The notes beneath the pieces were generated by a model. It saw only the letters and a program-made list of their open reading frames with translations. It had not been told where the DNA came from and did not search any database. Shown in pieces: positions 7,007-42,347 of a stretch of DNA of 64,000 nucleotides. Every line of letters starts with the position of its first letter. The first letter of the stretch is position 1. Position numbers and translations under genes: made by a program. Origin of the DNA: Methylobacterium sp. Leaf123 (GTDB lineage: Bacteria; Pseudomonadota; Alphaproteobacteria; Rhizobiales; Beijerinckiaceae); assembly GCF_001423405.1 (NCBI RefSeq), contig NZ_LMNS01000038.1:124001-188000 (forward strand). Reading direction: 5' to 3'.

Positions 7007-7169
7007 TCCCGTTCCATACATTCGCGTCGGGCAGATATGCGCGGCGCACATGTGGAAACGTTATCATCGCCCTTGCGATTTGTGCACCGCGATGCGATTT
7101 GTGCATTGCGAGATCGCGATGGCGTCGCGGTCCCGCAGCCCTTCTTGGGCGTTTCCTCCCTAGACTTCG

Positions 7170-7196
7170 GGCCGTCCTTCGGGGCGGCCTTTTTTT
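7170..7196 (+). terminator. Intrinsic terminator after galU
   Basis: An eight-base stem (7170-7177 with 7182-7189, one G-U pair) is closed by a stable TTCG tetraloop and followed by seven T residues. It lies about 160 bp after the galU stop and before the convergent amidohydrolase gene. Confidence 0.85.
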
Positions 7197-7247
7197 GTCT
7201 AAAGCGGATCGCCGGGCCGGCTGAAAGCCGCGTCTTGGTCCGGAAAG

Positions 7248-32840: not shown

Positions 32841-33742
32841 GGCGGCGCGTCCGCCGGCCGGCCGAGATGCCCGCCCAGCCCTTGCGCCAGGGCCGCGAGA
32901 AGGCGCGCGAGCACGCGGGGCGAGAACCGGTGACGGCTCCAGTAGAGCCCGATCTGGAGCGGCAGATAGGCGGCCTGTTTCAGCTTCCACCGGGCCGGCA
33001 CGTGCGGCAGGCGCCAGCTATAGGCGGAGTTGCGCACGTATACGGCCATGCGGAACAGCGGCTGGTCGGGCATCGCCACCGGCAGGAATCGCATCCGGAT
33101 CGTGCCGCGCCCGACGCTGTGCGGGATGGCGGTGCCAAAATCCATCCAGCAACTCCGGCCGCGCGCCCAGGCACGAAAGCACCATTCGAGATCGACGGCG
33201 TCGATGAAGAAATCCTCGCGGAATGGGCCGACCCTGTCGAAGGCCGCCAGATCCAGGAGCGAGCCGGAGGTCGCCAGGAACTCGACGGGTCGAAGGTTTT
33301 CGCGGCGCGGCATGCCGGGGCGCAGCGGATAGACCGGTGCCTTATGGCCGGGCTTCGGCGCCGGTGCCGGTCCGACAAGGGCCGGGGGCGGGTCTTCGCC
33401 TGCGGCCCGGTCGAGGGCATGGCCCAGCGCCTGCGCCGTCTCGACGGTGGCATCGGCATCCTGATCGAGCAGAAACAGGCGGCGGAACCCGGCGACCGTC
33501 GCCGCCTCGGCCAGCGCGTTCAGGGCGGTGGCGATGCCCTGGTTGCGGCCCTCACCGAGCCGGGTAAGCCCCGCCGCGCCCCGCAACTGCGCCAGCGCCT
33601 CGAGCGGGATGCCGCCATTGTCGTAGACGAGGACGGGCAGGCGCCCGGCAAAGCGCTCGACGATCCGCGCCACCTGTTCGGGCGAGGGACGGAAGAACAC
33701 GACCGCGACGGCGGTGTCAGGGGGAGGTTCGGGGGGCGTCAC
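32837..33742 (-). CDS. Glycosyltransferase (rhamnosyltransferase-like), first gene of pair
   Basis: Protein of 301 residues with a GT2-like fold: TAVAVVFFRPSPEQVARIV, VLVYDNGG, EGRNQGIATALNALAEAA, and the metal site LLDQDADAT. Then GSLLDLAAFDRVGPFREDFFIDAVDLEWCFRAWARG matches the rhamnosyltransferase acceptor region. It overlaps the next glycosyltransferase by 4 bp, so the two are translated together and probably add successive sugars to one surface glycan. Confidence 0.87.
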   Translation of the reverse strand: MTPPEPPPDTAVAVVFFRPSPEQVARIVERFAGRLPVLVYDNGGIPLEALAQLRGAAGLTRLGEGRNQGIATALNALAEAATVAGFRRLFLLDQDADATVETAQALGHALDRAAGEDPPPALVGPAPAPKPGHKAPVYPLRPGMPRRENLRPVEFLATSGSLLDLAAFDRVGPFREDFFIDAVDLEWCFRAWARGRSCWMDFGTAIPHSVGRGTIRMRFLPVAMPDQPLFRMAVYVRNSAYSWRLPHVPARWKLKQAAYLPLQIGLYWSRHRFSPRVLARLLAALAQGLGGHLGRPADAPP

Positions 33743-33782
33743 GTCGGACCTGTTATCGCGGCCAAAGGCCTAGGCGTCGCCC

Positions 33783-35285
33783 TCACTCGACGACGAGCTT
33801 GTAGCTCAGACCGGGCTTCACCACCGCACCGCGTTGCAGGCTGTTGAGCACGAGGAAGCGATCGACGGCGCGGTCGGGCACGCTCATGCGGCGGGCCAGC
33901 CCCTCGACGGTGTCGCCCGGCGCGGCCGTGACGATCCGCAGATGCGCCGGCTTGAGGGAGGCGGTCTCCTCCGGCTCGATCGGGCGCAGGCTCTCCAGCC
34001 AGCGGCGGAAGGCCGGCTCGGGGTCGGTCGCGCCCTTGGCCGCCATGATCATGCGGTAGGTGGTCTCGCCCATGCGGATCGCCGCCAGCCGAAAGGTCCA
34101 GTCCTTGCCCCGCGACAAGGCAACAGCGGCCGAGCGCCCGCCGACGATGCGGTTCTCGACCGAGCCCGCCTCAATGGCGTCGTTCCAGGTCGCGCGCAGC
34201 ACGTCTTCCAAGCTGCGGTCGCCGCTCGCTTCGACCTGATCGAACAGCAGGCGGCGGCTGCCCTCCGGCGTCGTGCCGAGCACGGCGTTGCGGGTGTTCT
34301 CGATGGCGAAGGCGTCCGGCACCTCGAAGGCGATGCTCAAGCCCGGATGCAGGAAGCGGCGACCGCGCACCAGCCCCTCGCCGGGATTGTCGCCATAGGC
34401 GAGCCCGTCGATCGCCGCGAGATAGCGGGCGCGGTCGTCGGCGCCGAGGCCGGGGGCGCCGATGCGCCGGGCCGCGCGGGTAACCAGCGCGATGCGCTCG
34501 GCGGTCGCCGGATGGGTCGCGAGCATGTCCGGCTCGGCCGCGCTGCCATTGCCGGCCTTGAGCGCCATGGTGCGCTGGAGCGCATCGAGGAAGCGGCCGG
34601 CACCGAACGCATCGTAGCCGGCCTGGGCCAGCACGCGCACACCGTTCGTGTCCGCCTCCAGCTCCTGTTCGCGGGAGAAGCGGGCGAGGGTGAACTTGGA
34701 CTGGCTCTCGAGCTGCGCCCCGGTGACGGGATCGTTCAGCACATCGGCGACGACGCGGCTCACGAGTTGCGAGCGCAGGGCCATCTCGCTGCGGGCGGTG
34801 GCATGGCGCAAGGTCACGTGGGCGATCTCGTGCGCGAGCACCGCCGCGACCTCGGAGCTGTCGCCGGCAAGCGCCAGCAGGCCGCGGGTGACGTAGAGCC
34901 GTCCGCTCGGCAGGGCGAAGGCGTTGACGACGGGCGAGTCGAGCAGCGTGACCGCGTAGCTCTCCTCCGGCCGGTCGCTGGCGCGCACGAGCCGGTCGGT
35001 GATCTCGGTGATGAGCCGGTGCGCGGCGGGCGCGCGGTACTCTCCGCCGAAGGAGGCCACGAGCTTGGCGTGGTCCGCCTCATCGGAGCGCGTGCGCCCC
35101 GTCGTCTTCGGCGCCTGCTCGGGCACCGTGATGACCGCCGGCGTCAAGACGCTTCCGGTCTGGTCGGCGGCGCACGCCGCGAGCAGGCCCGCGAGCGCGG
35201 CCAGCATGCCGAGCCGCGCAAGTCCCTGACGGCCGACCCCGCATGTGCGCCGCCGCCTCAATATGTGCTGCCGATCCCCCGTCAT
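33783..35285 (-). CDS. M48-family metallopeptidase lipoprotein with C-terminal LysM-like module
   Basis: Periplasmic zinc protease of 500 residues, BepA/LoiP-like. It has a lipoprotein signal with lipobox LLAAC (Cys38) and the zinc motif HEIAH (His152, Glu153, His156) in AAVLAHEIAHVTLRH. The third ligand is Glu208 in EQELEAD. The C-terminal 55 residues (AAPGDTVEGLARRMSVPDRAVDRFLVLN) form a LysM-like module that may bind peptidoglycan. Such proteins handle outer-membrane protein quality control. The neighbouring SNase-like gene lies 6 bp upstream. Confidence 0.9.
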   Translation of the reverse strand: MTGDRQHILRRRRTCGVGRQGLARLGMLAALAGLLAACAADQTGSVLTPAVITVPEQAPKTTGRTRSDEADHAKLVASFGGEYRAPAAHRLITEITDRLVRASDRPEESYAVTLLDSPVVNAFALPSGRLYVTRGLLALAGDSSEVAAVLAHEIAHVTLRHATARSEMALRSQLVSRVVADVLNDPVTGAQLESQSKFTLARFSREQELEADTNGVRVLAQAGYDAFGAGRFLDALQRTMALKAGNGSAAEPDMLATHPATAERIALVTRAARRIGAPGLGADDRARYLAAIDGLAYGDNPGEGLVRGRRFLHPGLSIAFEVPDAFAIENTRNAVLGTTPEGSRRLLFDQVEASGDRSLEDVLRATWNDAIEAGSVENRIVGGRSAAVALSRGKDWTFRLAAIRMGETTYRMIMAAKGATDPEPAFRRWLESLRPIEPEETASLKPAHLRIVTAAPGDTVEGLARRMSVPDRAVDRFLVLNSLQRGAVVKPGLSYKLVVE

Positions 35286-35291
35286 GCCGTT

Positions 35292-36137
35292 CTAGCGCCG
35301 TAGCGCCCGCTCCCCCTCGACGACCTCGATGCCTTCGACGCCCGCCAGATCGATGAACGGCCCCCGACCGATCTCGACCATGCCGCGGATTCTCACGAGG
35401 CGACCCCTCAGCGTGGCCGCCGATAAACCCTGTTCGCTCAGAATCCGCCAAGAGCGTTTCTGCACGGTTACGGTCAAGCCTTGCCCGCCACGGCGCGCGA
35501 AGTCGAGATAGGTTCGGGCCGAGCGCTCGCCGACATGAAGGATGCGTCCCTCCACCACCGTGAAGCGCCCGGCGCGTGCGCTCAATGCCGCCGCATCGGT
35601 CGCGGCGAGCGGGCCACCGGCCCAGATGCCGAGCCCGGCCGCGCGTGGCGCCGACTCGAGGGTGCGGAGCGCCGGGCGGCAGAGCGTGTCGGCCTCGCCG
35701 GCATCGGCATAGGCAAGCCCGGCCGCGACCAATCCTCCGGCGAGATCGACCGGCTCCGCCTCGCCCGCGATCGCGTCGGCGCGACGGCGGCCCCAGCGGT
35801 CCTCGGCCCCGCGCTCGGTCAAAACGAGGGACGCGCCGCGATAGGCGTGCAGCCAGCCCCGCGCGGCCGCGTCAAACGCCGGCTCGTCGGGCCAGCGCAG
35901 CCCGGAGAGCACGGCCCGGCGGCCGGATGCGAGAAGCAGCTCGCCCCTGGGTCCGATCTCGGCAAGGCGGTCCGCCCGCGCGGCGGAAGCCCGGCATGCC
36001 TCCTCCACCCGTGGAGCGCCCGAGGCATCGCCCGGCGCGCCGCAGGCGGCCGCGAGCAACCAGACGAGAGCCGGGGCACCGCCTCGGCTCGTCCGGCTCC
36101 CCCGCGAGCCGATCTCGTGACCATCACCGGGCAACAT
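35292..36137 (-). CDS. Thermonuclease (SNase-like) family protein, probably exported
   Basis: Protein of about 281 residues. An N-terminal hydrophobic stretch (APALVWLLAAACGAPG) looks like a signal or lipoprotein segment. The SNase-type barrel is recognisable from SGLRWPDEPAFDAAARGWLHAYRGASLVLTERGAEDRWGRRRA (residues about 93-136) and VAAGLAYAD. A later OB-like stretch (VVEGRILHVGERSARTYLDF) is typical of alphaproteobacterial members. Catalytic residues are only partly visible, so activity is uncertain. ATG 36137 gives the signal; an upstream in-frame extension to 36293 lacks it. Confidence 0.72.
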   Translation of the reverse strand: MLPGDGHEIGSRGSRTSRGGAPALVWLLAAACGAPGDASGAPRVEEACRASAARADRLAEIGPRGELLLASGRRAVLSGLRWPDEPAFDAAARGWLHAYRGASLVLTERGAEDRWGRRRADAIAGEAEPVDLAGGLVAAGLAYADAGEADTLCRPALRTLESAPRAAGLGIWAGGPLAATDAAALSARAGRFTVVEGRILHVGERSARTYLDFARRGGQGLTVTVQKRSWRILSEQGLSAATLRGRLVRIRGMVEIGRGPFIDLAGVEGIEVVEGERALRR

Positions 36138-36299
36138 CGCCACCGTTCGCGCTCGGTCTTTCGATTCAAGCGAGGATGCCGCGCGAAAAGTGCCCGGATC
36201 GCGGCACGCGCGAGCACCGCCCGCGCGCAATCGCGGATTGCCGGCGCGTGCGCTTCCCGGGCAACAGCGCGATGGTCGCGCGCTCCGGCTCATTCCTTA

Positions 36300-36324
36300 C
36301 AACCGCTCCGGCCCGGAGCGGTTG
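36300..36324. repeat. Perfect 11-bp inverted repeat with 3-base loop
   Basis: CAACCGCTCCG (36300-36310) is followed by GCC and its exact complement (36314-36324). It lies 36 bp before the tRNA-Arg gene, in the promoter area of the tRNA or in the leader of the divergent SNase-like gene. Confidence 0.5.
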
Positions 36325-36359
36325 GCGGTGCCGTGCGATGATGCTAAGCCGGTGGAGAC

Positions 36360-36679
36360 GTCTCCGTAGCTCAGCTGGACAGAGCACAGGTTTCCTAAAC
36401 TCCACAATTGGGCGCCGTGATGGGAAACCGCACGGCGGATCCACTCAAATTCGGGGAAAGCTTCCGGCGCCACGGCGCTCTGCCGATCCCGAGCCAAGCC
36501 CGAGGTCCGGTCACGGTCCACGGGAAGGTGTAGAGACTAGACGGGTGGCACCTAAAGGCTTCGTTCGAAGCCCACGGTGAAGGGATAGTCCAGACCACGA
36601 ACGCGCGAACAGCGTGGCGGCGAAAGTCGAAGTGGTATGAAACCTGGGGTCGCAGGTTCGAGCCCTGCCGGGGACGCCA
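36360..36679 (+). tRNA. tRNA-Arg(CCT), interrupted by a group I intron
   Basis: Exon 1 is 36360-36396 and exon 2 is 36640-36679. Joined, they give a normal 77-nt tRNA: acceptor stem GTCTCCG with CGGGGAC (one T-G pair), D-arm TAGCTCAGCTGGACAGAGCA, anticodon stem CAGGT/ACCTG around loop TTCCTAA (anticodon CCT), T-arm GCAGGTTCGAGCCCTGC, and an encoded CCA (36677-36679). It decodes AGG. The intron lies directly after the third anticodon base. The same tRNA carries a group I intron in Agrobacterium, so this is a known location. Confidence 0.96.
36397..36639 (+). ncRNA. Group I intron (IC3-like), no internal reading frame
   Basis: The 243-nt intron starts after exon-terminal T36396 and ends at G36639 (omega-G). 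The internal guide GGGAAACC at 36422-36429 pairs with exon bases GGTTTCCT (36389-36396), giving the required U-G pair at the 5-prime splice site. Core elements match the bacterial tRNA introns: CTCAAATTCGG(G)GAAA in the P4/J region, CCGAGCCAAGC, GGTGTAGAGACTAGACGG (P7, guanosine site), GGTGAAGGGATAGTCCAG, and GGCGAAAGTC near the 3-prime end. It should self-splice. It encodes no homing endonuclease. Assignment rests on motif match; no folding was run. Confidence 0.93.
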
Positions 36680-36864
36680 AACGTTTTCGCTGCCTCAGAT
36701 TGCAAACAAACATTCGATACTTCCTTCGATCTGAGTGCGACGTCGCGCCGCAGCTATAACAAATGACATAACGTGTGTGTCGTTGCCATTGGCTCCTGGC
36801 GCGCCCTTGCACGAGGAAAGTTTTCGTTCGAAGCATCGCCCGAAAGAACTTGGGCAGAACGAAG

Positions 36865-37272
36865 ATGGCAGGCCAGAAGACCGATGAGCGCGACGTCCTT
36901 CTCGGACGTCGCATTGCCGAGCAACGCAAACGCTCGAAGCTGACGCAGCGAGCGGTCGCCGACAGCTTCGGGATGTCTGCCGCGCAACTCCAGAAGTACG
37001 AAAAAGGCGTCAACCGGATCAGCGCGATTCATCTCGCGATCCTCAGTCGGCTTACCAATACTCCGGTTTCCGACTTCCTCGACGGCATTCCGCATCCGGA
37101 CCCGGAAACGGAACGCGGTTTTTCAGACAATGGCCAGCACGCTTATGCTGTCGAGCCGTGGTCTGATCTCGCCCGCGCCTTCGCTCGCCAGTTCACCGAA
37201 ACATTCACCGAGCAACAGCGCCGCGAACTCTCCGCCGCCGTCGAGATCCTCAGTCAGGAACTCAAGGGCTGA
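36865..37272 (+). CDS. XRE-family transcriptional regulator upstream of metK
   Basis: Cytoplasmic protein of 135 residues. A helix-turn-helix of the Cro/C1 type occupies about residues 14-70 (LLGRRIAEQRKRSKLTQRAVADSFGMSAAQLQKYEKGVNRIS). The C-terminal helix (QQRRELSAAVEILSQELKG) may dimerise. I chose ATG 36865 as it precedes the domain; the upstream in-frame extension is not protein-like. This regulator lies before metK and trmB in many Hyphomicrobiales, so it may control S-adenosylmethionine synthesis, though this is inferred from context only. Confidence 0.85.
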   Translation: MAGQKTDERDVLLGRRIAEQRKRSKLTQRAVADSFGMSAAQLQKYEKGVNRISAIHLAILSRLTNTPVSDFLDGIPHPDPETERGFSDNGQHAYAVEPWSDLARAFARQFTETFTEQQRRELSAAVEILSQELKG

Positions 37273-37330
37273 CAGTCGCAGCCGCAGGCGGGAATCACAA
37301 GACGAGAGCGCACGCGGCAGCGTTCGTTAA

Positions 37331-37367
37331 AACGGACGATTTCGCCATTCCGGCTTGACCGTCCGTT
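37331..37367 (+). promoter_or_regulatory. Candidate promoter/inverted repeat in the metK leader
   Basis: AACGGAC (37331-37337) and GTCCGTT (37361-37367) form a perfect 7-bp inverted repeat. A TTGACC hexamer at 37355-37360 could be a -35 box; a matching -10 is poor. Further down, CTGGAGACCAG and GCGCC...GGCGC stems could form in the 180-nt leader. I do not recognise a known riboswitch in it. Confidence 0.25.
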
Positions 37368-37452
37368 ACGGCGATGCGACAAGCCGCGCCTCTGGAGACC
37401 AGGGTAAGCGCCGTGACACACGAGGCGCGCCCGACAATCGGGGGTGCACACG

Positions 37453-38628
37453 ATGCCTCGTTCCGACTACCTCTTCACCAGCGAATCCGTCTCCGAAGGC
37501 CACCCCGACAAGGTGAGCGACCGGATCTCGGACACCGTGGTCGATGCCTATCTCTCGGCCATGCCGGAGGCGCGTCTCGGCGTCGAGACGCTGACGACGA
37601 CCAACCGCGTCGTGATCGCGGGTGAGGTGCGCGGCCCCGATTCCGTGACCTTCAAGGATCTGGAAGAGCTGACCCGTGAAGCCGTGCGCGACATCGGCTA
37701 CGAGCAGTCGGGCTTCCACTGGAAGAACAACGACGTCGCCATCCACCTGCACGCGCAGTCGGCCGACATCGCGCAGGGCGTGGACGCCGCCGGCAACAAG
37801 GACGAGGGCGCGGGCGACCAGGGCATCATGTTCGGCTACGCCGCCGACGAGACCCCGGCACTGATGCCGGCCCCGATCTTCTACGCTCACAAGATCCTCA
37901 AGGACCTCGCCGACGCGCGTAAGGCCAAGCAGGGCGACGCTGCCAAGCTCGGCCCCGATGCCAAGAGCCAGGTCACCGTGCGCTACGCCAACGGCCGCCC
38001 GGTCGAGGTGACGCAGATCGTGCTCTCGACGCAGCATCTCGACGAGTCGCTCGACTCGGCCGACGTGCGCGCCATCGTCGAGCCCTACATCCTCGCAGCT
38101 CTGCCGCAGGGCTGGGTCAACGAAGGCACCGCCTGGCACGTCAACCCGACCGGCAAGTTCGTGATCGGCGGCCCCGATGGCGATGCCGGCCTCACCGGCC
38201 GCAAGATCATCGTCGACACCTACGGTGGCGCGGCGCCCCATGGCGGCGGTGCCTTCTCCGGCAAGGACCCGACCAAGGTCGATCGTTCGGCCGCCTATGC
38301 CGCCCGCTATCTGGCCAAGAACGTCGTCGCCGCCGGCCTTGCCCGTCGCGCCACGATCCAGCTCTCCTACGCCATCGGCGTGGCCAAGCCCCTGTCGATC
38401 TACGTCGATCTGCACGGCACCGGCACGGTGGACGAGGCGAAGCTCGAGACGGTCCTCATGGACGCCCTCGATCTCTCGCCCCGCGGCATCCGCACGGCGC
38501 TTCAGCTCAACAAGCCGATCTACGCCCGCACCTCGGCCTACGGCCATTTCGGCCGCGAGCCCGATGCCGATGGCGGCTTCTCCTGGGAGAAGACCGACCT
38601 CGCCGACAAGCTGAAGTCGGCGTTCTGA
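37453..38628 (+). CDS. metK: S-adenosylmethionine synthase
   Basis: Makes S-adenosylmethionine from methionine and ATP. The 391-residue product has [14 protein letters not shown] at the N-terminus, [12 protein letters not shown], and the P-loop-like [23 protein letters not shown]. Length and order of domains are normal. ATG 37453 is preferred over the GTG at 37444. It is followed 9 bp later by trmB, which uses the product. The upstream XRE gene is separated by 180 bp of leader. Confidence 0.98.
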
Positions 38629-38637
38629 GCCCGAACC

Positions 38638-39375
38638 ATGATGGGGAGGGATGACGACATCCCTCCCGAGACGGGCGGGACGGCGGAGACCGAGCGGGCC
38701 TTCTACGGGCGCCGAAAGGGCAAGCGCCTGCGTCCGGGCCAGGAGCAGCGCCTCGAAGGGGCGCTGCCGGGCTTACGCGTCGCGCTCCCCGAGCGCGGCG
38801 AGTTCCTCGATCCGCCGAGCCTGTTCCCGGTTGATGTCGACGAGGTCTGGCTGGAAATCGGCTTCGGCGGCGGCGAGCATCTCGCGGCGCAGGCCGAGGC
38901 TCACCGCCAAGCCGGCATCATCGGCTGCGAACCCTTCGTCAACGGCGTGGTCAAGCTGCTGCGCGCGGTGGACGATCGCGGCTTGCGCAACGTCCGCGTC
39001 TGGGACGAGGACGCGACCGCTCTGCTTGCCGCCCTGCCGGATGCGAGTCTCGCCCGCGTCTACCTGCTCTATCCCGATCCCTGGCCGAAACGCCGCCAGC
39101 GCAAGCGCCGCTTCGTGTCGGACGCCTCGCTCGCCGAGATCGCCCGGGTGCTGCGCCCCGGCGGCCATTTCCGCTTCGCCAGCGATATCGACGACTATGT
39201 CGGCTGGACCCTGGTCCGCGCCGCCCGTTGCCCGCAACTCCGCTGGAGCGCCGAGACCGCCGACGACTGGCGCAAGCCGTTCGCCGGCTGGCCGGGCACC
39301 CGCTACGAGGCCAAGGCCCTCGCGGCCGGCCGGCTGCCGAGCTACCTCACGTTCGAGCGGGTCGCCGCAGACTGA
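38638..39375 (+). CDS. trmB: tRNA (guanine-N7-)-methyltransferase
   Basis: Methylates G46 in the tRNA variable loop using S-adenosylmethionine. The 245-residue product has the SAM-binding motif VWLEIGFGGGEHLAAQAE, ENPFVNGVVKLLRA-like CEPFVNGVV, and the family signature LYPDPWPKRRQRKRRFV. An acidic N-terminal extension of about 30 residues precedes the core. Two adjacent ATGs (38638 and 38641) are possible. It forms a metK-trmB operon. Confidence 0.95.
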   Translation: MMGRDDDIPPETGGTAETERAFYGRRKGKRLRPGQEQRLEGALPGLRVALPERGEFLDPPSLFPVDVDEVWLEIGFGGGEHLAAQAEAHRQAGIIGCEPFVNGVVKLLRAVDDRGLRNVRVWDEDATALLAALPDASLARVYLLYPDPWPKRRQRKRRFVSDASLAEIARVLRPGGHFRFASDIDDYVGWTLVRAARCPQLRWSAETADDWRKPFAGWPGTRYEAKALAAGRLPSYLTFERVAAD

Positions 39376-39412
39376 TCCGGCGGCCGAACACGCCCTCATC
39401 GCCCAACGAAGC

Positions 39413-39468
39413 CGAAGCGATCCAGCGCGCCGCCTTTCTCTGAAAGGTCGCGCGGCTGGATCGCTTCG
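39413..39468. terminator. Large imperfect palindrome between convergent trmB and topA
   Basis: The outer arms CGAAGCGATCCAGC (39413-39426) and GCTGGATCGCTTCG (39455-39468) are perfectly complementary over 14 bp. The inner part also pairs (GCGCG/CGCGC and CTTTC-TCT-GAAAG). It is likely a bidirectional terminator or a palindromic repeat unit. No long T-tract is present. Confidence 0.6.
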
Positions 39469-39614
39469 CTGTCGTTCGCGTTCGACGGCCGGCTGAACGA
39501 TTTTTGGATGATGAGGACACGCGGCGAAATCGTGTGCGCGCCCTCGCGACCCGGATGCAGGCCGGATGTCGAGACGCCCCGACATCCGACGGAAGCAACC
39601 GCTTCCAGCGGGCC

Positions 39615-42347
39615 TCAGCCCGCCTTCGTCTTCGACGTAGCCTTCTTTGCAGCCGCCGGCTTGGCCGCAGCCTTCGTCGCCGGCGCCTTGGTGGTCGCCT
39701 TGGCCGCCGTCTTGCGCACGGCCGGCTTCTTTGCCTCGCCGGCCTCCGCCTTCTTCGCCGGCGCACGAGCGCGGGTCGCCGTCTTGCGAACCGGCTTCTT
39801 GCCGCCGCCGGAGGCGCGCTTGGCGTTCACGAGATCGATCGCCTGCTCCAGCGTCAGATTCTCGGCGGCCATCGTCTTCGGCAGCGTCGCGTTGACCGAG
39901 CCGTCGCTGACATAGGGGCCGTACTTGCCGGCCTTGACCACGAGGGCAGCGCCGTCCGGATGCTGGCCGAGGGCACGGCCGGGGTCAGAGGAGGGGCGGC
40001 CGCGCCCGCCGCCCTGCTCCTTGGCGACGATGAGATCGATGGCGCGGTTGCCGCCGATCTCCAGCACGTCGTCATCCTTGCCGAGATTGGCATAGGTCTT
40101 CCCGTGCTGCACGTAGGGGCCGAAGCGGCCGAGATTGGCTAGAATCGGCTCGCCGGTCTCCGGATGCTTGGCCACCTCGCGCGGCAGCGAGAGCAGGCGC
40201 AGCGCGATCTCCAATGTGACGCTGCCCGGCGTCATGCCCTTCGGGAGCGAGGAGCGCTTGGGCTTCTCCGCGCCCTTCTCGGCACTCGCCTCGCCGAGCT
40301 GCACGAACGGCCCGAAGCGCCCGTCGCGTAGGGTGACGGGCATACTGGTGGCCGGATCGTCGCCGAGCACACGCACGCCGGGCTGGCCGCCCTCGGCCGA
40401 GGAGCCGTCCCCCTCGCCCTCGACGCCGGAGGCCGAGAGCTGGCGGGTGTACTTGCACTCAGGATAATTCGAGCAGCCGATGAAGGCGCCGAACTTGCCG
40501 AGCTTGAGCGAGAGCTGGCCGGCCCCGCAGGTCGGGCAAGCGCGCGGATCGCCGCCATCCGCCTTCTCGGGGAAGATGTGGGGGCCGAGCAGGCCGTTGA
40601 GCGCCTCGAGAACCTCCGCGACGCGCAGCTCCTTGGTGCCGCCGATGGCCGCCGAGAAGTCGCGCCAGAAGTCGCGCAGGACCGAGCGCCAGTCGATCTC
40701 GGCATTCGAGACCCGGTCGAGCTGCTCTTCCAGGCTCGCGGTGAAATCGTACTCGACGTAGCGCTTGAAGAAGCTCTCGAGGAAGCCGGTAACGAGCCGC
40801 CCCTTGTCCTCCGGCTGAAGGCGCTTCTTCTCGATGCGGACATATTCGCGGTCGCGCAGAGTCTGCAGCACCGCGGCATAGGTCGAGGGCCGGCCGATGC
40901 CGAGTTCTTCCATCCGCTTGACGAGGCTGGCCTCGGAATAGCGCGGCGGCGGCTCCGTGAAGTGCTGGGTCGAGGCGATGCGCTCGCGCTTCAAGGCGTC
41001 GCCCGCCTTCATCGCCGGCAGGCGCTTGGCGTCCTCGTCCTCCTCGTCGTCCTTGCCTTCCTGATAGAGGGCGAGGAAGCCGTCGAACTTCACGACCTGA
41101 CCGGTGGCGCGCAGATCGATCCGGCGCGGGCCGACATTCGCGCTCACCTCGACGGTGGTGCGCTCCAGCTCGGCCGATTCCATCTGGCTGGCGATGGTGC
41201 GGGTCCAGATCAGGTCGTAGAGCTTGGCCTGCTCCGGTTCGAGGTAGCGGGCGATCTGCTTCGGGAGCCGGCCCATATCGGTCGGGCGCACGGCCTCGTG
41301 GGCCTCCTGCGCGTTCTTGGCCTTCACCGAGTATTTGCGCGGCGCACCGGGGACGTAGGCGTCGCCGAACTCGCGGCCGATCACCCGGCGGGCGTCCTGG
41401 ATCGCCTCCGGCGCCATGTCGACGCCGTCGGTTCGCATGTAAGTGATGATACCGACGGTCTCGCCGCCGACATCCACGCCCTCGTAGAGCCGCTGCGCGA
41501 CCCGCATGGTCTGCGCCGGGGCCATCCCGAGCTTGCGGGACGCCTCCTGCTGCAGCGTGGAGGTGGTGAAGGGCGGCTGCGGGTGGCGCTTGGCGGGCTT
41601 GGCCTCGACGCTGGCGACTTGGAAGGTCGCGAGTTCGAGGTCGCGCTTGAAGGCGGCGGCCTCCTCGGCATTGCCGACATCGAGGCGCTGGATGCGCTTG
41701 CCATCCGCGCCGACGAGCCGGGCCTCGAACACGCCACCGGCTTCCGTCACCAGCGTCGCGATGATCGACCAGTACTCACGCGGCTTGAAGCGCTCGATCT
41801 CCATCTCGCGCTCGACCACGAGGCGGAGCGCCACCGACTGCACCCGGCCGGCCGAGCGGGCGCCGGGCAGCTTGCGCCACAACACCGGCGAGAGGTTGAA
41901 GCCGACGAGGTAATCGAGGGCACGGCGCGCGAGATAGGCATCGACCAGGGCCTGATCGATCTGGCGCGGCTTCTTCATCGCCGCGTCGACCGACGCTTTG
42001 GTGATGGCGTTGAAGGTCACCCGCTCGACGGGAATCCCCTTCAGCGCCTTGCGGGCGGTGAGCGCTTCGATGACGTGCCAGGAGATCGCCTCGCCCTCGC
42101 GATCCGGGTCGGTCGCGAGGATGAGCTTCTCAGCTCCCTTCACGGCGCGGGCGATCTCGGACACGCGCTTGGCGCCGCGATCCTCCACCTCCCAGATCAT
42201 GGCGAAATCGGCCTCCGGATCGACCGAGCCGTCCTTGGCCGGCAGATCGCGGATATGGCCGAAAGAGGCCAGAACCTCGTAATCGCCCCCCAGGTACTTG
42301 TTGATCGTCTTGGCCTTGGCCGGCGACTCGACGACGACGACTTTCAT
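39615..42347 (-). CDS. topA: DNA topoisomerase I
   Basis: Type IA topoisomerase of 910 residues that relaxes negative supercoils. The Toprim domain starts at KVVVVESPAKAKTINKYLG, with the acidic triad in ATDPDREGEA. The active tyrosine is Tyr303 in GIITYMRTDG. Zinc-finger-type modules follow (CPTCGAGQ...FIGCSNYPECKYTR), then several topo C-terminal repeats (KFGPYVSDG, RFGPYVQHGKTY). The last 60 residues are a Lys/Ala/Pro-rich tail resembling histone H1 tails, common in alphaproteobacteria. In relatives topA often follows dprA; here it lies elsewhere and on the opposite strand. Confidence 0.97.
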   Translation of the reverse strand: MKVVVVESPAKAKTINKYLGGDYEVLASFGHIRDLPAKDGSVDPEADFAMIWEVEDRGAKRVSEIARAVKGAEKLILATDPDREGEAISWHVIEALTARKALKGIPVERVTFNAITKASVDAAMKKPRQIDQALVDAYLARRALDYLVGFNLSPVLWRKLPGARSAGRVQSVALRLVVEREMEIERFKPREYWSIIATLVTEAGGVFEARLVGADGKRIQRLDVGNAEEAAAFKRDLELATFQVASVEAKPAKRHPQPPFTTSTLQQEASRKLGMAPAQTMRVAQRLYEGVDVGGETVGIITYMRTDGVDMAPEAIQDARRVIGREFGDAYVPGAPRKYSVKAKNAQEAHEAVRPTDMGRLPKQIARYLEPEQAKLYDLIWTRTIASQMESAELERTTVEVSANVGPRRIDLRATGQVVKFDGFLALYQEGKDDEEDEDAKRLPAMKAGDALKRERIASTQHFTEPPPRYSEASLVKRMEELGIGRPSTYAAVLQTLRDREYVRIEKKRLQPEDKGRLVTGFLESFFKRYVEYDFTASLEEQLDRVSNAEIDWRSVLRDFWRDFSAAIGGTKELRVAEVLEALNGLLGPHIFPEKADGGDPRACPTCGAGQLSLKLGKFGAFIGCSNYPECKYTRQLSASGVEGEGDGSSAEGGQPGVRVLGDDPATSMPVTLRDGRFGPFVQLGEASAEKGAEKPKRSSLPKGMTPGSVTLEIALRLLSLPREVAKHPETGEPILANLGRFGPYVQHGKTYANLGKDDDVLEIGGNRAIDLIVAKEQGGGRGRPSSDPGRALGQHPDGAALVVKAGKYGPYVSDGSVNATLPKTMAAENLTLEQAIDLVNAKRASGGGKKPVRKTATRARAPAKKAEAGEAKKPAVRKTAAKATTKAPATKAAAKPAAAKKATSKTKAG

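Follow-up and report, generated by a model that had tools for sequence, protein, structure and literature searches.

A group I intron in the tRNA-Arg(CCU) gene of Methylobacterium and its distribution in the genus

The interrupted tRNA-Arg(CCU) gene and the arginine tRNAs

The window, i.e., the whole stretch of 64,000 nucleotides that was analysed from contig NZ_LMNS01000038.1 of Methylobacterium sp. Leaf123, contains a tRNA-Arg(CCU) gene split by a group I intron (Table 1). A sequence-only reading had proposed this 243-nt interruption at 36360-36679, and its coordinates proved exact; the intron boundaries were set by ARAGORN and by comparison with relatives. ARAGORN identified the joined exons (77 nt, with CCA, as had also been claimed) as tRNA-Arg(cct). 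With introns allowed it made the same call on the unspliced 320 nt, while at default settings it reported 0 tRNA genes in the window and missed the split tRNA-Arg. RF00028 matched positions 36392-36607 along the full model (1-253) with 36.7 bits and an E-value of 1.1e-6, a score that lies below the curated gathering score of 50; for this reason, a gathering-threshold Rfam scan of the window omits the intron. The match was the single one at E ≤ 1 within 33000-40000, and at E ≤ 0.001 there was no second one in the genome (5.43 Mb, 40 contigs). The annotation is thereby corrected, as the default tRNA search misses tRNA-Arg(CCU) and the Rfam cut-off misses the intron, and the same layout recurs across the genus. 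Elsewhere in the window, at 7131-7205, lies the Rfam suhB (mmgR) small RNA (71.1 bits).

Inside the intron, no sense frame stays free of stops for more than about 60 codons, and one antisense frame is open across all 80 codons and contains a 67-aa ORF at 36395-36598. Pfam returned nothing credible for the longest sense frame or the antisense frame (best E 0.17, an unrelated family), and no endonuclease frame was found in the intron by ORF survey and Pfam, in agreement with the sequence-only reading. A promoter/terminator consensus scan near the tRNA-Arg(CCU) gene found none. The downstream neighbours are genes for a helix-turn-helix protein, metK and a Methyltransf_4 protein, the last of which we take to be probably trmB, and an M48 peptidase is encoded upstream.

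The decoding of AGG had been proposed to depend on splicing. No second intact tRNA-Arg(CCU) gene was present among the 45 tRNA matches obtained in the genome at E ≤ 0.001, nor was one recovered by similarity search with the spliced gene. The other arginine anticodons in the genome are ACG, CCG, and UCU, and the gene most similar to the spliced tRNA is tRNA-Arg(UCU) (80%), whose counterparts in other bacteria decode AGG through wobble pairing. Since this tRNA-Arg(UCU) is intact, splicing need not be required for AGG decoding; any dependence would be at most partial, and the proposal was overstated. AGG is rare: 26 long ORFs of the window, picked by length and GC3, contain 1052 arginine codons, of which 14 are AGG. 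The tRNA inventory of the genome also lacks tRNA-Ile(GAU) and tRNA-Ala(UGC), which usually sit in rRNA operons, and therefore the draft assembly may lack some genes.

Table 1. Exons, intron, and structural elements of the interrupted tRNA-Arg(CCU) gene in window positions, with pairing across introns at the same site
Feature	Position	Strand	Observation
Exon 1	36360-36396	+	37 nt of tRNA-Arg(CCU)
Intron	36397-36639	+	243 nt, directly after U36 in the anticodon loop; last base G
Exon 2	36640-36679	+	40 nt, encodes CCA
P1	36394-36412	+	exon CCU 36394-36396 with guide GGG 36410-36412; U-G at 5' splice site; 330/330 cells paired, invariant
P2 with GAAA loop 36424-36427	36413-36437	+	98.7% of cells paired (shuffles 96.8%); double changes in 5/7 pairs; GAAA in 109/110
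P3 (36441-36446 with 36543-36548)	36441-36548	+	660/660 cells paired; double changes in 2/6 pairs
P4 (36452-36456 with 36487-36491), P5 inside	36452-36491	+	550/550 cells paired, nearly invariant
P6 (36493-36495 with 36527-36529) and P6a/P6b extension	36493-36529	+	P6 invariant
18-nt core block GGTGTAGAGACTAGACGG	36527-36544	+	identical in 109/110 introns
P7, guanosine-binding helix (36535-36539 with 36586-36590)	36535-36590	+	550/550 cells paired
P8 with outer stem	36549-36579	+	P8 99.8% paired
P9 (36594-36598 with 36632-36636)	36594-36636	+	93.1% paired vs. 92.5% in shuffles, barely above
P9b GNRA hairpin	36619-36628	+	330/330 cells paired; loop GAAA or GGAA in 110/110

Fold of the intron and its conservation

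A group IC3 plan was drawn on the sequence and then scored across introns at the same site. The sample comprised 121 introns, of which the genus contributed 108, the family 2, and named records 11; 110 of the introns are distinct. Three Arg(CCU) introns that failed the exon filter (L087, L103, and L154) are absent from it and present in the intron tree described below, and L112, truncated where its stretch ends, was dropped as well. Every cell of P1, P3, P4, P5, P6, P7, and P9b was paired in the 110 distinct introns. All 110 also share the CCU/GGG guide, the splice-site U-G and the final G, so that the group I hallmark (P1 guide, 5' U-G, and terminal G) is found throughout, as is the arrangement put forward for the window copy alone by the sequence-only reading, an intron that starts after U36, ends in G and pairs its guide with the exon through a U-G.

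Over all cells, 92.2% were paired, whereas 100 shuffles averaged 88.0% and peaked at 88.5%; this excess is only indicative because shuffles ignore relatedness. The corresponding values were 97.5% vs. 91.3% for P6a, 71.7% vs. 46.8% for P6b, and 88.0% vs. 72.7% for the outer stem of P8, in which double changes occur in all six pairs (6/6). Helix P9a as drawn was unsupported (50.9% vs. 51.2% in shuffles) and was rejected. Double changes were seen in 30 of the 71 named pairs, those in the outer helices resting on many sequences and those in P3 and P7 on one to three (in P7, an A-T pair is replaced by G-C once, in a single sequence), and P1, P4, P5, and P6 barely vary, so that no covariation evidence comes from these helices. 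In the plan, P7 forms a pseudoknot with P3, and both the P4-P6 and the P3-P8 domain are present, several of the helices varying too little to prove pairing. Judged from these features of the sequences, it is very likely that the intron functions as a group IC3 ribozyme, which would splice itself from the transcript.

Distribution in Methylobacterium and beyond

DNA similarity and the synteny of the tRNA region place the window with records named Methylobacterium and Methylorubrum (e.g., L060, L119, and L172). The 320-nt locus was matched in 111/111 genomes of the genus, in 107 over its full length, in one (G227) in two pieces and in three without the intron, which is thus present in 108 of 111. 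The exons of these 108 genomes differ from those of the window at no position in 55 and at one position in 53. In the 318-nt intron of G227 (locus L421), the P6 extension contains a GC-rich, repeat-like insert.

The three exceptions (G237, G238, and G291) have an uninterrupted tRNA-Arg(CCU) and no credible intron match anywhere else in their genomes (best E 0.007); their retention of the tRNA suggests that it is needed. A metK tree of 79 rows, from which 41 of the 108 intron-bearing genomes are omitted (39 without metK in the stretch and 2 with pieces that were too short), joins them in one clade (SH-aLRT 93) nested in a 7-row clade (SH-aLRT 99) that also holds intron-bearing genomes, and we therefore count one loss. 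Their tRNA has 5 differences from the window exons, four of them in the T arm, whose change the three genomes share, and this coupling of a single loss to a changed T arm is the sole unexpected point of the analysis. Two of the three keep metK downstream of the tRNA. In the third, phage-type frames follow directly downstream of the tRNA; the phage families to which PHROGs assigns them are DNA methyltransferase (E 1.3e-17) and queuine tRNA-ribosyltransferase (E 1.4e-47).

Forty loci of the genus have no metK in the stretch (39 with the intron and 1 without), and for these the single longest downstream frame was judged by eye. In L366 (257-nt intron) and L405 (258-nt intron), a frame of at least 470 aa begins 89 nt after exon 2. 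The L366 frame is an integrase by PHROGs (E 3.2e-13), as is its continuation in L463 (E 3.5e-15), and the L405 frame was called integrase by its likeness to L366; Pfam found only DUF6538 on the L366 frame and nothing on the continuation. The 3' exon of the intron-bearing tRNA-Arg(CCU) is thus a probable landing site of integrative elements. The idea that the intron shields the tRNA from integration was rejected, as in these two loci such integrase frames lie directly downstream of the intron-bearing tRNA.

It is conceivable, and to our judgement rather improbable, that in the intronless clade the intron was removed together with a replacement of the T arm, perhaps by recombination with the tRNA end of an integrative element; the link of the loss to such an element is a guess drawn from one of the three genomes. 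If true, elements landing at the 3' exon would offer genomes a way to lose their tRNA introns.

In a family sample of 199 genomes (10 of the genus), near full-length matches outside the genus were found, among the matches listed, in only 2 of 189 genomes (G038 and G032). Sixteen exon-1 places picked by hand from the family matches were all uninterrupted tRNA-Arg(CCU) genes. Other family genomes match the intron core alone, again among the matches listed, and these core-only matches would fit introns in other tRNAs; low-similarity introns in the Arg(CCU) of other hosts could be missed by this search. The core 18-mer was present in at least 119 genome stretches (120 places) and at least 120 viral stretches, and its spread over so many genome stretches marks the block as class-wide. 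The host tRNAs of the 120 genome places found, as called by ARAGORN with some doubtful anticodons, were Leu(UAA) in 46, Arg(CCU) in 14, 'Met'(CAU) in 10, others in 39, and unsolved in 11.

On an intron tree of 109 rows, all 20 Arg(CCU) rows (20/20) fall in one clade (SH-aLRT 99), which takes in records named Xanthobacter, Herbaspirillum, and Corallincola and sits among alphaproteobacterial Leu and Phe introns, with the CAU-type introns apart from it. The tree was built on 241 columns from a set without Bartonella or Agrobacterium sequences; 56 of its 105 inner branches are weakly supported and long branches, including L103, were flagged. The grouping points to common descent of the window intron with the other introns at the Arg(CCU) site.

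Apparent group I introns in tRNAs were also encountered on plasmids and in viral sequences. Of 72,556 plasmid records, 1271 were hit by the query from the window, in no case over more than 80% of its length. The two inspected, L464 (pCTX-M3, 1430-1728) and L465 (947-1246), each carry an unannotated tRNA interrupted by a group I intron, which RF00028 matches at E about 1e-6 and below the cut-off; ARAGORN labels this tRNA Stop(tta), which we read as Leu(UAA), and in L464 it lies not far from aac(3)-IId. Among the 120 viral places found (L174-L293), which hold apparent group I introns on contigs that may contain host DNA, ARAGORN placed a tRNA around 92 and left 28 unsolved. Gordonia phage Daredevil (L466, 752-1063) has an apparent group I intron in a tRNA-Lys(ttt) by ARAGORN, with no RF00028 match at E ≤ 0.01 at the locus. 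According to a 2014 review (PMC3984707), every phage group I intron then known lay in a protein gene.

Proposed explanation and relation to known introns

We are highly confident that the insert is an IC3 group I intron which self-splices to give an AGG-reading tRNA, carries no mobility gene and has been long held in the genus, with one loss. This reading is supported by the full-model RF00028 match, the folding of the spliced exons as tRNA-Arg(CCU), the conserved fold, the presence of the intron in nearly all genomes of the genus, and the reported splicing of a homologous intron in the Bartonella bacilliformis tRNA-Arg(CCU) (PMC7717549). The precursor would be transcribed whole, after which the intron would fold and bind guanosine in P7; the transcript would be cut after U36, with the exon held by the CCU/GGG guide helix and its U-G, and the freed exon would attack behind the final G, so that the two exons are ligated and yield a mature tRNA able to read AGG.

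The occupied site could alternatively reflect the recent arrival of a mobile intron, which we regard as unlikely. Between-class transfer would fit the Arg(CCU) introns that records named Xanthobacter, Herbaspirillum (a betaproteobacterium), and Corallincola (a gammaproteobacterium) contribute to the clade of the window intron, and the near absence of full-length matches in the family outside Methylobacterium, among the matches listed, leans the same way. However, 108 of the 111 Methylobacterium genomes carry the intron at the same site, the three that lack it group in a single nested clade, and the search for an endonuclease frame was negative. Retention of the intron as a switch that limits the supply of tRNA-Arg(CCU) might instead explain why it is nearly fixed in the genus although it has no mobility gene, yet one clade lost the intron and kept the tRNA, and we give this possibility very little credence. 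Least probable of all, and close to dismissed here, is a decayed intron that has lost splicing and sits in a dead tRNA gene: the RF00028 score under the cut-off, the rarity of AGG, and the presence of a tRNA-Arg(UCU) that could cover this codon would all be compatible with it, but the guide, the splice-site U-G, the final G, and P7 are intact here and in 110/110 introns, with double changes, the exons are intact and nearly unchanged across the genus, and decay is at odds with an intron present in 108 of its 111 genomes. For the long-held, self-splicing intron that we favour, the clean set of 108 introns at one site together with one loss should be useful in studying how introns persist without mobility genes.

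Regarding its relatives, the window intron is up to 84.1% identical over 207 aligned positions to alphaproteobacterial tRNA-Leu(UAA) introns (e.g., L055, Phenylobacterium), which differ in their host tRNA and lie outside the Arg(CCU) clade. The sequence-only reading had described the core as almost identical to that of the Azoarcus tRNA-Ile(CAU) intron, which shares the IC3 plan with GNRA loops. This was overstated, as the likeness lies mainly in the class-wide 18-nt block, presumably identical in the Azoarcus intron, and three 'Met_cat' introns (L084, L078, and L075) that stood in for the Azoarcus type are 68-74% identical to the window intron. With these stand-ins showing lower identity than the Leu(UAA) introns and separate tree branches, the Azoarcus type was rejected as the nearest relative.

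A literature search, judged by titles and the openings of abstracts, gave no paper on a group I intron in a Methylobacterium tRNA, and this copy may nonetheless have been described already; the finding alters no general idea. Group I introns occur in tRNAs of cyanobacteria, alpha- and betaproteobacteria, as stated in PMC4033280. The sequence-only reading had also held that the site has precedent, and PMC7717549 confirms this: in Bartonella bacilliformis, an unannotated tRNA-Arg(CCU) contains the group I intron BbgpI, which is reported to be spliced in vivo and to splice itself in vitro. BbgpI interrupts the same tRNA, has CCT repeats at its borders as here, and hides a tRNA that was found only once the intron had been removed; it differs in belonging to another genus, the likeness being one of description (PMC7717549). 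The same text traces the tRNA-Arg(CCU) intron family to Agrobacterium tumefaciens, where it was first found, and later to other alphaproteobacteria (Reinhold-Hurek and Shub 1992 and Paquin et al. 1999, as cited in PMC7717549). By description, these introns share the host tRNA and the class of the window intron (PMC7717549), which is a member of this known alphaproteobacterial tRNA-Arg(CCU) group I family, nearly fixed in its genus.
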